Assembly: GCA_023258975.1 (NCBI GenBank)
Contig: JAHFRD010000014.1
Coordinates: forward strand, 1 to 64,000
Length of the DNA stretch: 64,000 nucleotides
Direction: 5' to 3'
Source: Hydrogenophilales bacterium
GTDB taxonomy: Bacteria > Pseudomonadota > Gammaproteobacteria > Burkholderiales > Thiobacillaceae
This document shows, in pieces, positions 31,589-64,000 of this stretch; position 1 is the stretch's first letter; the number at the start of each line of letters is the position of its first letter. Both the position numbers and the translations under genes were made by a program. The notes under the pieces are model-generated. The model was not told where the DNA came from, searched no databases, and saw only the letters and a program-made list of their open reading frames with translations.

Positions 31589-32728
31589 ATGGGCGTGAAT
31601 GAGATCGCCATCGTCGCCGGCGAGGCTTCCGGCGATCTGCTCGGCAGCCTGCTGATCCGCTCCGTGCAGGCGGCCGGTCTGGATGCCGGGTTCCACGGGA
31701 TCGCGGGGCCGAAGATGCAATCCGCCGGCGCACGTTCCCTGTTTCCCATGGAAACACTCTCGGTGCGCGGTTATGTGGAAGCGCTGGGCAGCCTGCGCAA
31801 GATCCTCGGCATCCGCCGCGACCTGAAGAAGCAATTGCTGGCACAACCCCCACGCCTGTTCATCGGTGTCGACGCGCCCGACTTCAACCTGGCGCTGGAA
31901 AGCAGGCTCAAGCGCGCCGGCATTCCCACGCTTCACTTCATCAGCCCGTCGATCTGGGCCTGGCGACCCCGGCGCATCCGCAAGATCGCGCGCGCCGCCT
32001 CGCATGTCCTGCTGGTGTTCCCCTTCGAGGAAGCGATCTACCAACAAGCGGGCATCCCGGCCACCTATGTCGGCCATCCGCTCGCGCACGCCCTGCCGGA
32101 GCCCGACCGCAAGGCCGCGCGCGAACGCCTCGGTCTTGCCCGGGACGGGGAATACGTGGCCCTGTTGCCGGGCAGCCGACTCGGAGAATTGCAGGCGCTG
32201 GGCCGCCTGTATGTCGAAGCAGCGAAACGCATCGCCCTGGCGCGGCCGGATACCCGCTTCCTGATTCCCCTGGCAACCCGCGAAACCCGCCAGGCCTTCG
32301 AGCGCATCCTTTATGAAGCCGACGCGGGGGAGTTGCCGCTGCGCATCCTGTTCGGCCATGCCCATGACGCCATGCAGGCCGCCGATGCCGCGCTGATCGC
32401 CTCCGGCACGGCGACCCTGGAAGCCTTGCTGCTGGACTGCCCTCATGTCATCAGCTACCGCGTGCCCTGGCTGACCTGGCAGATCATGAAACGCCAGGCC
32501 CTGCTGCCCTGGATCGGCCTGCCCAACATCCTGGCGGAACGCACCGTGGTGCCGGAAATCCTGCAGGATCAGGCTACACCGGAAGGATTGGCGCGGGCCA
32601 TCGAGGAACTGCTCGCGAACGAGGAAGCTCGCGCCGCGCAGATCGAGGAGTTCCGCGTTCAGCGTGCCCGGCTCAAACGCGACACGCCCCGGCTCATCGC
32701 CGAGGCCATCCGGCCATTTCTGAGATGA
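31589..32728 (+). CDS. lpxB: Lipid-A-disaccharide synthase LpxB
   Basis: This 379-residue GT19 glycosyltransferase joins lipid X and UDP-diacylglucosamine. IAIVAGEASGDLLGSLLI, GIAGPKMQSAG, SPSIWAWRPRRIRKI and SGTATLEALL are family signatures. The ATG at 31589 follows a 46-bp spacer with imperfect short repeats; a GTG at 31595 is possible. The TGA stop (32726-32728) overlaps the ATG of the first mini-ORF of the tandem repeat. Confidence 0.96.
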   Translation: MGVNEIAIVAGEASGDLLGSLLIRSVQAAGLDAGFHGIAGPKMQSAGARSLFPMETLSVRGYVEALGSLRKILGIRRDLKKQLLAQPPRLFIGVDAPDFNLALESRLKRAGIPTLHFISPSIWAWRPRRIRKIARAASHVLLVFPFEEAIYQQAGIPATYVGHPLAHALPEPDRKAARERLGLARDGEYVALLPGSRLGELQALGRLYVEAAKRIALARPDTRFLIPLATRETRQAFERILYEADAGELPLRILFGHAHDAMQAADAALIASGTATLEALLLDCPHVISYRVPWLTWQIMKRQALLPWIGLPNILAERTVVPEILQDQATPEGLARAIEELLANEEARAAQIEEFRVQRARLKRDTPRLIAEAIRPFLR

Positions 32729-32964
32729 AACAGCCCCCTTACTCGCTACGCTCGTTTCCCCCCGAGGGGGAGGTCAGTTCCTTCGGAACGGCCGTGCGGA
32801 ACTGATGAAACAGCCCCCTTACTCGCTACGCTCGTTTCCCCCCGAGGGGGAGGTCAGTTCCTTCGGAACGGCCGTGCAGAACTGATGAAACAGCCCCCTT
32901 ACTCGCTACGCTCGTTTCCCCCCGAGGGGGAGGTCAGTTCCTTCGGAACGGCCGTGCGGAACTG
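32725..32964 (+). repeat. Triple 80-bp tandem repeat forming chained mini-ORFs between lpxB and rnhB
   Basis: Three 80-bp units (starts 32725, 32805 and 32885) differ by one base (A for G in unit 2 near 32878). Each encodes a 26-residue peptide beginning [10 protein letters not shown]. The ATG of unit 1 overlaps the lpxB stop (ATGA), units 1-2 and 2-3 join as TGATG, and unit 3 stops one base before the rnhB ATG. Each unit also contains CCCCCT/AGGGGG and TCAGTTCC/GGAACTGA inverted repeats. CTGAGATGA occurs directly at both ends (32720-32728 and 32962-32970). Similar hairpin repeats occur in other betaproteobacteria, as I recall. Confidence 0.88.
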
Positions 32965-32966
32965 AG

Positions 32967-33542
32967 ATGACCCTCATCTGCGGCGTCGACGAAGCCGGAC
33001 GCGGCCCGCTCGCCGGGCCGGTCTATGCCGCCGCCGTCATCCTCGACCCGACACGCCCCATCACCGGCCTGAAAGACTCCAAAAAACTCGGCGCCGCGCG
33101 CCGCGAAACGCTCGCCGAAGCCATCAAGGCCAACGCCCTGGCCTGGGCCGTGGCCTGGGCCGACGAGGAAGAAATAGATCGTCTGAATATCCTCCACGCC
33201 AGCATGCTGGCCATGCGCCGCGCCGTGCTGGCGCTGCAACCAGCCGCGCGCGAGGCGCTGATCGACGGCAACCGCTGCCCGGATCTGCCCATTCCCGCCC
33301 GCGCCATCGTCCGGGGCGACGCCCTGGAGCCATGTATTTCCGCAGCATCCATTCTGGCCAAGACAGAAAGGGATAAAGTTCTGCGCGAACTTGCCGATAA
33401 GTATCCCGTGTATGGTTTTGAACGCCACGCCGGCTACCCCACGGCGGCCCATCTCGCCGCGCTGGAACGATATGGGCCTTGCCCGGCGCACCGGAAGACG
33501 TTCGGCCCCGTGCAAAAAATTCTGCAAAAACAACTGATCTGA
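32967..33542 (+). CDS. rnhB: Ribonuclease HII
   Basis: This 191-residue enzyme removes ribonucleotides from DNA. The active-site acidic residues lie in [23 protein letters not shown] (DEAGRG motif), LKDSKKL, and the later [18 protein letters not shown] segment. The ATG at 32967 is one base beyond the stop of the last 80-bp repeat unit. Removing 242 bp would restore an ATGA overlap with lpxB. Confidence 0.96.
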
Positions 33543-62844: not shown

Positions 62845-64000
62845 ATGTCGCCCATATCCTCGTCCTTGCCCTTGCCCTTGCCCATGCCCTTGCCCTCCTC
62901 CCGCCGCAACGTTTCGATCCTGGTTCTGGGCCAGGCCTTGATGCTTTCCACCGCCGTCCTGGCCATGACGCTGGGCGCGATCCTGGGCGCCACGCTCGCC
63001 CCGGACAAGGGGCTGGCGACGCTGCCCATCGCCGCCCTGGTGGTCGGCACCGCCATCGCCTCGCTGCCGGCGGCCATGCTCATGCGCAAGCGGGGACGCC
63101 GCTTTGCCTTCCTGCTCGGCGCGCTGCTGGGCATCGGCGGCAGCCTGTTGTGCGCGCTGGCGCTGCGCGAGGGCTCGTTCGTCCTCTTCATCGCCGGGCA
63201 CGTCTTGCTCGGCGCCTATCAGGGCTTCGCCAATTACTACCGCTTCGCGGCAGTCGAGGCCGCCGGCCCCCTCTATGCCGGAAAAGCGATTTCCCTGGTG
63301 GTGGCCGGTGGCGTGGTCGCAGCCTTCCTCGGCCCGCAACTCGGGCTATGGGGGCGCGACTGGATCGGCGGCCCGTTGTTCGTCGGCTCCTACCTGGCGC
63401 AAGGCGGCTTGAGCCTGATTGCCCTGATCCTGCTCTCCCGCCTCGACCTTCCCAACCTCGTCGTCGCGCAAGGTGGTTCCGCTCGCCCACTCCGCGAGAT
63501 ACTGGGCCAGCCCACCCTTCAGGTCTCGGTCTTCGGCGCCGCCATCGGCTATGCCGTCATGATTATGGTCATGACCGCGACCCCCTTGGCGATTCTGGGC
63601 TGCGGCCTGCCGGGAACCAGCGTGGCGCCGGTCATCCAATGGCATGTGGTGGGCATGTTCGCGCCGTCCTTCTTCACCGGCGCCCTGATCAAGCGCCACG
63701 GCGCGCCACGCATCATGCAAGTGGGTTTCATCCTGCTGCTGGCGCACGTTGCCGTGGCGCTATCCGGCGTTGAATTCCTGCATTTCCTGTCGGCCCTGAT
63801 CTTTCTGGGCATCGGCTGGAACTTCGCCTTCATCGGCGGCACCACCTTGCTGACCCAGACCTACCTGCCTGCGGAGCAAATGCGGGTGCAGGCGGTCAAT
63901 GAATTCACCATCTTCGGCCTGGTGGCCCTGGCCACGCTCTCGGCTGGCTGGCTCTACGACCGCTTCGGCTGGATCCCCCTGAACCTGGCGGTGGTGCCGC
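62845..64000 (+). CDS. MFS transporter (truncated at the window end)
   Basis: At least 385 residues are visible, with no stop before the window ends. About 11 TM helices are seen (SILVLGQALMLSTAVLAMTLGA, then GLATLPIAALVVGTAIASLPAAMLMRKRGRRFAFLLGALLG, an MFS loop between helices 2 and 3). The first residues after MSPISSS are an LP-repeat (LPLPLPMPLP) from a CCCTTG tract; an in-frame ATG at 62884 could be the true start. There is no clear ribosome-binding site. The substrate is unknown. Confidence 0.8.
   Translation, partial: MSPISSSLPLPLPMPLPSSRRNVSILVLGQALMLSTAVLAMTLGAILGATLAPDKGLATLPIAALVVGTAIASLPAAMLMRKRGRRFAFLLGALLGIGGSLLCALALREGSFVLFIAGHVLLGAYQGFANYYRFAAVEAAGPLYAGKAISLVVAGGVVAAFLGPQLGLWGRDWIGGPLFVGSYLAQGGLSLIALILLSRLDLPNLVVAQGGSARPLREILGQPTLQVSVFGAAIGYAVMIMVMTATPLAILGCGLPGTSVAPVIQWHVVGMFAPSFFTGALIKRHGAPRIMQVGFILLLAHVAVALSGVEFLHFLSALIFLGIGWNFAFIGGTTLLTQTYLPAEQMRVQAVNEFTIFGLVALATLSAGWLYDRFGWIPLNLAVVP

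Follow-up and report, generated by a model that had tools for sequence, protein, structure and literature searches.

Three 80-bp repeat units with chained small reading frames at the lpxB-rnhB junction belong to a dispersed element that favours stop/start junctions

What happens to translation across an operon when a tandem repeat lies between two of its genes, and how does such a repeat come to lie there? The question is raised by the junction of lpxB and rnhB in the window, a 64,000-nt stretch (positions 1 to 64,000 of the forward strand) of contig JAHFRD010000014.1 from a Hydrogenophilales bacterium (GCA_023258975.1). A first-pass annotation had read the sequence between the two genes as three near-identical 80-bp units, each a 26-codon open reading frame (ORF), here called a mini-ORF. 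Tandem Repeats Finder (32724-32965, period 80, 3.0 copies, 98% matches, score 477) and the ORF list bear out all its statements on the sequence. The lpxB stop TGA (32726-32728) shares an ATGA with the start of the first mini-ORF, the units join as TGATG, and the TGA of the third mini-ORF (32963-32965) is followed by a single G and then by the rnhB ATG at 32967. CTGAGATGA is present at both edges of the array, and excising 242 bp leaves one copy of it and a normal ATGA overlap. A chance origin of a near-perfect array of three 80-bp units is excluded by a wide margin, and the unit also recurs across the genome. Neither Pfam nor NCBIfam matches the mini-peptide (E up to 0.001), and Rfam gives nothing for positions 32600-33100 (E up to 1). 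We consider it likely that the array consists of a dispersed repeat that seats at junctions resembling CTGA-N-ATG, and that its chain of mini-ORFs passes ribosomes from lpxB to rnhB by termination-reinitiation.

The unit is widely dispersed. It gives 22 BLAST matches in its own 3.6-Mb genome, where a covariance model finds 30 (E up to 0.01). With this model, 18 of the 23 genomes of the genus give a match and, when the filters are tightened, so do 17 of 300 genomes sampled across the order (Burkholderiales), the source genome being included in both counts. A core pattern of the unit matches exactly in 51 stretches of named records, whose titles include Thiomonas, Rubrivivax, Ideonella, Aquabacterium and Rhodoferax. 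From 183 loci we obtained 191 arrays and kept 175, dropping 11 with flanks under 150 nt and 5 with duplicate downstream sequence. Copy number ranges from 1 to 4, with 145 arrays single and 30 tandem. The covariance model (R1) took in five right-flank bases and could favour ACATG; the subset found with the core pattern, which includes neither end of the unit, served as control.

Comparison of orthologous junctions shows that the unit inserts. Seven relatives lack it between lpxB and rnhB (L146-L151, L184); in an eighth, G006, other repeats are present and the junction is divided between two contigs (L178, L179). All of L146-L151 show the ATGA overlap of the two genes, four of the six with CTGACATG. 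Empty sites were found at five further loci, namely ftsE-ftsX (L023), L011, L012, L018 and a ribB-like locus (L025). The empty seat reads CTGACATG in two of three relatives at L011 and CTGANATG in three relatives at L018, and the empty sites at ftsE-ftsX and L025 read CTGATG, TTGATG or TAAATG. At several loci, then, target-like sequence is present in relatives without the repeat, and other loci differ. At the L012 locus, one relative (G017, L174) carries a unit with 100% identity to that of the window between flanks of 86% and 83% identity, a contrast that points to homogenisation or a recent insertion; the source genome has two copies there (L012) and G017 has one. Together with the copies across genome and genus, the empty sites support the first-pass annotation's view of an inserting, dispersed element. 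The same junctions in relatives also hold inverted-repeat inserts that by eye do not resemble the unit, namely L155 (ftsE-ftsX of G017), L159 (G017) and L177 (G006), and these may serve for comparison. The ribB-like locus of four genomes (L169-L172 in G006, G020, G011 and G009) holds a longer form related to the unit, with some 65 additional bases inside it; at this junction the source genome carries the short unit, which may be an internal deletion of the longer form.

Copies are seated preferentially at stop/start junctions. Gene calls for the seating, flank and target-site counts came from our own codon-usage script trained on the window, and these counts are approximate; the comparison set was 334 ordinary same-strand gene pairs in 464 kb of the source genome. 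An upstream stop lies at a coupling position of the unit start in 104 of the 136 arrays that have a same-strand gene, a readable stop and a unit start codon. Relative to the unit start, the stop ends at -1 in 66, at +4 in 33 and at +1 in 5. Among ordinary pairs the corresponding spacings number 7, 45 and 6, or 58 of 334 (Fisher p 7e-34 against the arrays). On the other side, an in-frame gene start directly follows the last unit in 121 of 175 arrays. Both sides fit in 85 of 175, which are 85 of the 124 arrays where both flanks are clearly coding on the same strand. The core-pattern subset behaves like the whole set (upstream fit 26/34, downstream fit 33/38). Among the upstream exceptions, clear coding is missing in 18 arrays, the gene is on the opposite strand in 14 and the unit has no start codon in 6. 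The next start is GTG in 6 of 122 in-frame cases; in three metagenome-assembled genome records (L191, L197, L215) a gene starting with GTG follows in the same seat. The phased seating foreseen in the first-pass annotation thus stands as a strong preference, far above that of ordinary gene pairs and unlike random placement, but not as a universal rule.

Part of this preference lies in the DNA itself. Among the 66 arrays of the stop-1 nt-start type, 48 have a CTGA stop context, against 99 of 428 sampled gene ends. CTAGG or CTGGG can precede copies where no gene end is recognised (L016, L020, L022), and after two copies of the source genome (L015, L021) comes CATAG instead of a start codon; relatives suggest that L021 inserted at the upstream stop. 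CTGA enrichment, target-like flanks without gene ends and CATAG-followed copies indicate a DNA-level preference near CTGA-N-ATG. The sequence CTGANATG is rare, with 17 non-element sites in the 464 kb: 9 in genes, 3 intergenic and 5 at gene starts, 2 of these with a near stop. Left flanks of the 175 arrays vary (CTGAG 27, CTGAA 17, CTGAC 12, CTAGG 8, CTGAT 8), whereas the right flank is CTGAC in 108. This contrast places the seam near the ATG, which can be assigned to neither side, and settles no fixed target-site duplication.

Stop placement within the unit points to translation. Of 117 last units before a clear gene, 106 have their mini-ORF stop between -4 and +7 nt from the next start, compared with 19 and 20 when the frame is shifted by 1 or 2 bases. 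We defined phases by the distance from unit start to next start. In phase 1 (n=74), 70 units stop 1 nt before the next start, and in phase 2 (n=34), 27 stop at an ATGA (-4) that overlaps it; these 70 and 27 are also the tallies of the two spacings over all 117. Phase 0 (n=9) is mixed, with three units running in frame into the gene, four stopping within 6 nt before the next start and two stopping early. An A follows the next start in 28 of 34 phase 2 units versus 25 of 74 in phase 1 (p 3e-6). The difference holds among CTGAN right ends (13/15 vs 22/69, p 2e-4) and when cases with the same downstream gene and phase are collapsed (11/13 vs 18/64, with L017 still included). Units whose frame misses their own TGA mostly meet ATGA, which restores the overlap. 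No premature stop occurs in the mini-ORF frame of 97 unique 80-nt units chosen for their start and usual end. Stop placement and this frame compensation argue that translation matters. The suggestion, made at the outset, that the unit may be built for such junctions needs one amendment: a DNA-level target near CTGA-N-ATG also takes part in the seating.

The unit ends in a covarying hairpin. We took its last nine bases, placed by the last TGA or else by the unit end, as one arm; at least 8 of 9 positions pair with an upstream stretch in 83.5% of 243 units, versus 29.4% with unlike arms swapped. Arm pairs change together, as in GTCAGTTCC/GGAACTGAC, GTCAGTACC/GGTACTGAC and TCGCCTCCC/GGGAGGCGA. 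The stem ends at, or adjoins, the next start codon. This hairpin could serve DNA mobility, or it could keep the start closed until a ribosome on the mini-ORF opens the stem. RNAalifold on the first 44 copies had chosen a different fold, and the terminal hairpin emerged with more diverse units and the swapped-arm control. Column-wise pairing without correction for subfamily indels was weak at several columns (down to 82/151) and was replaced by the arm search.

These observations fit a mechanism in several steps. The array would be three tandem copies of a repeat too short to encode its own mobility, which would insert at CTGA-N-ATG-like sequences with an enzyme presumably supplied in trans. 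Since such a target is a stop/start junction in an operon, the upstream gene would keep its stop after insertion. Each unit would bring its own start (ATGAAAC), followed by about 26 open codons and by a stop that lies 1 nt before the next start or overlaps it, and with these a ribosome finishing lpxB could restart on the mini-ORF. Having opened the terminal hairpin and reached the stop, it would start again on each following unit and lastly on rnhB, whose output would be kept. Copies that break the chain would tend to be lost by selection. Coupling is best at -4 to +3 nt in most of the studies reviewed (PMC12548453), and in six native gene pairs most reinitiation is lost at some 14-38 nt (PMC10666635). 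Because native coupling falls with distance, an insert of 80-240 nt without a mini-ORF should weaken or abolish it.

Several observations weigh against this account. Some of the reviewed studies see coupling at +25 or beyond +50 nt (PMC12548453), so an insert without a mini-ORF need not fully uncouple the genes. In 54 of the 175 arrays no usable in-frame gene start comes right behind the last unit: 16 have no start codon, 15 no clear coding, 13 an opposite-strand gene and 9 an out-of-frame start, and in L017, removed from the gene-start count, the frame stops at once. The 21 arrays of the source genome follow the pattern loosely, 12 fitting upstream, 10 downstream and 7 on both sides; five of them are low-scoring copies. 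Three of 118 last units (L017 included) stop early (L132, L230, L267), and in two others (L266, L320) the mini-ORF continues out of frame beyond the next start. After its first stop the +1 frame is nearly stop-free (1/97; 31/97 in the +2 frame), and base composition therefore accounts for part of the openness of the mini-ORF. The frame pattern reflects in part shared descent within subfamilies and not independent events, which weakens the p-values; collapsing is the sole correction applied. The single window unit folds no better than shuffles (z -0.06). Variation is nearly flat across codon positions (0.207, 0.203, 0.255), which indicates that the peptide is hardly constrained. The simplest reading would be selection for an unbroken reading chain, not for its product.

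Two alternatives can be set aside with little hesitation. In a draft genome, where repeats often break contigs, one might suspect an assembly artefact or an ordinary tandem repeat confined to this junction; that is already refuted by the many loci, in many assemblies, that carry single or tandem copies (30 of 175 arrays are tandem), and we regard it as next to impossible. Small protein genes duplicated in operons and kept for their 26-residue peptide would account for the open frame, the ATG-AAA start and the 97 unique standard-length units free of premature stops. Against this stand the near-flat codon-position variation, the lack of Pfam and NCBIfam matches, the covariation of the terminal hairpin and the persistence, in like seats, of frame-shifted versions that encode other peptides. 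This explanation is already disfavoured and seems to us very improbable.

A more serious competitor treats the unit as a REP-like (repetitive extragenic palindromic) repeat moved by a Y1/HUH transposase to targets like its own right end (CTGACATG). Seating would then be a by-product of targeting combined with loss of intragenic insertions, and the mini-ORF would have no role. The target-like left flanks where no gene end is recognised, the empty sites that already read CTGANATG and the covarying hairpin all agree with it. TnpAREP enzymes cut at CT beside a hairpin (PMC8266576), and such cleavage would suit CT-GA-N-ATG. The source genome has 4 Y1_Tnp (PF01797) genes, and 12 of the 14 genomes searched have such genes; one, on contig C100 of G017, lies about 2.6 kb away from a unit. 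However, CTGANATG is rare and lies mostly off junctions, GTG starts are used too, and DNA targeting alone would not lead one to expect stop placement and frame compensation. Nor does the enzyme keep company with the repeat: in 31 of 38 Y1_Tnp places, scanned with flanks up to 1.5 kb, there was no clear unit and one marginal match (E 0.049), and the unit-rich genomes G010 and G152 have no Y1_Tnp match. The scarcity of units beside these genes counts equally against a mover of this kind in the mechanism we favour, and for this reason we claim no enzyme as the mover. We judge the REP-like explanation rather unlikely, and a repeat whose mini-ORFs relay ribosomes remains our preferred reading.

The resemblance to REP elements and to BIMEs (bacterial interspersed mosaic elements), with their TnpAREP (RAYT) enzymes, is nevertheless real in part. 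Both are small dispersed palindromic repeats with CT in the target, and the terminal hairpin of the unit, with its compensatory arms, matches the conserved palindrome of the REP/TnpAREP system. Seating at stop/start junctions, combined with an open frame, is not known to belong to the definition of REP elements. In a REPtron the repeat flanks the tnpAREP gene, an arrangement not clearly seen at the scanned places, and a conserved GTAG tetranucleotide at the hairpin foot is needed for cleavage in E. coli (PMC8266576). The foot of the unit is instead GTCAG/CTGAC, part of the stem, and a GTAG on its opposite strand (GCTACGC) falls in variable columns.

The first-pass annotation had thought that a mobile unit of this design would be new; in principle it is not. 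Mycobacterial MIRUs (mycobacterial interspersed repetitive units) are described as apparently mobile, inserting at start codons, with an internal ORF coupled to the gene at a -4 spacing (Supply et al. 1997, as cited in PMC12548453); the design is thus already known in mycobacteria. By this description of design, not by sequence, the unit may be called a betaproteobacterial MIRU-like variant. The shared traits are a short dispersed repeat, single or tandem, and placement at start codons with an internal ORF, as seen in the 121 of 175 in-frame starts and the 106 of 117 stops at -4 to +7. MIRUs are also near 80 bp in size, occur in tandem copies and insert at DTGA sites in operons. The unit differs in belonging to another phylum and in using mostly TGA-N-ATG, with ATGA as a second type, compared with the -4 given for MIRUs in PMC12548453. 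Its covarying terminal hairpin, ending at the next start, is noted here for the unit alone. The present analysis adds an extensive betaproteobacterial counterpart whose main spacing is a different one, together with a target-like sequence, sites that are empty in relatives, a hairpin that covaries and a natural frame test. One could go further and suppose that Betaproteobacteria independently evolved a MIRU-type operon-junction transposon, with a stop/start target, a selected, ATGA-rescued frame, hairpin gating of the next gene and a copy number that tunes downstream translation; we offer this fuller scenario tentatively, as possible but doubtful.

Other systems share single traits. Native overlapping gene pairs coupled by termination-reinitiation (PMC10666635, PMC6728339) use the same -4, -1 and +1 spacings, and the unit would act like an extra tiny gene in such a chain; unlike in native pairs, the coupled ORF is a repeated, inserting element. 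The unit can also be set beside the palindromic elements of Rickettsia, from which it differs in sitting between genes with its own start and stop. Those elements lie inside genes and in frame, and are tolerated since the frame stays open. We found no description of such repeats in Betaproteobacteria or more generally, and three literal core strings of the unit occurred in no paper searched; coverage of subscription papers was thin in these searches, which leaves absence unproven.

If the chain works as proposed, the repeat may spread in operons while sparing the downstream gene, and coupling-preserving repeats would occur in at least two phyla rather than being a mycobacterial oddity. Natural copies with varied frames, spacings and copy numbers would form a ready-made set for studying termination-reinitiation and the avoidance of polarity. 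The mini-ORFs may also surface in annotation as spurious or missed small genes. Coordinates of the features at the junction are collected in Table 1.

Table 1. Features of the lpxB-rnhB junction, in window positions.
Feature	Position	Strand	Basis or remark
lpxB, lipid-A-disaccharide synthase	31589..32728	+	ORF list; PF02684 E 2.3e-96; TIGR00215
Left junction CTGAGATGA, target-like CTGA-N-ATG	32720..32728	+	
Unit 1	32725..32804	+	mini-ORF 32725-32805, 26 codons
Unit 2, one base different	32805..32884	+	mini-ORF 32805-32885; TGATG join with unit 1
Unit 3, identical to unit 1	32885..32964	+	mini-ORF 32885-32965
Terminal hairpin of unit 3, 5' arm GTCAGTTCC	32933..32941	+	arm offsets and arm comparison, 243 units
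Terminal hairpin of unit 3, 3' arm GGAACTGAG	32958..32966	+	abuts rnhB start codon
Right junction CTGAGATGA	32962..32970	+	CTGAC before next start in 108/175 arrays
rnhB, ribonuclease HII	32967..33542	+	PF01351 E 1.3e-39; NF000596

Elsewhere in the window, positions 62864-62896 hold a CCTTGC hexamer repeat of 5.5 copies.
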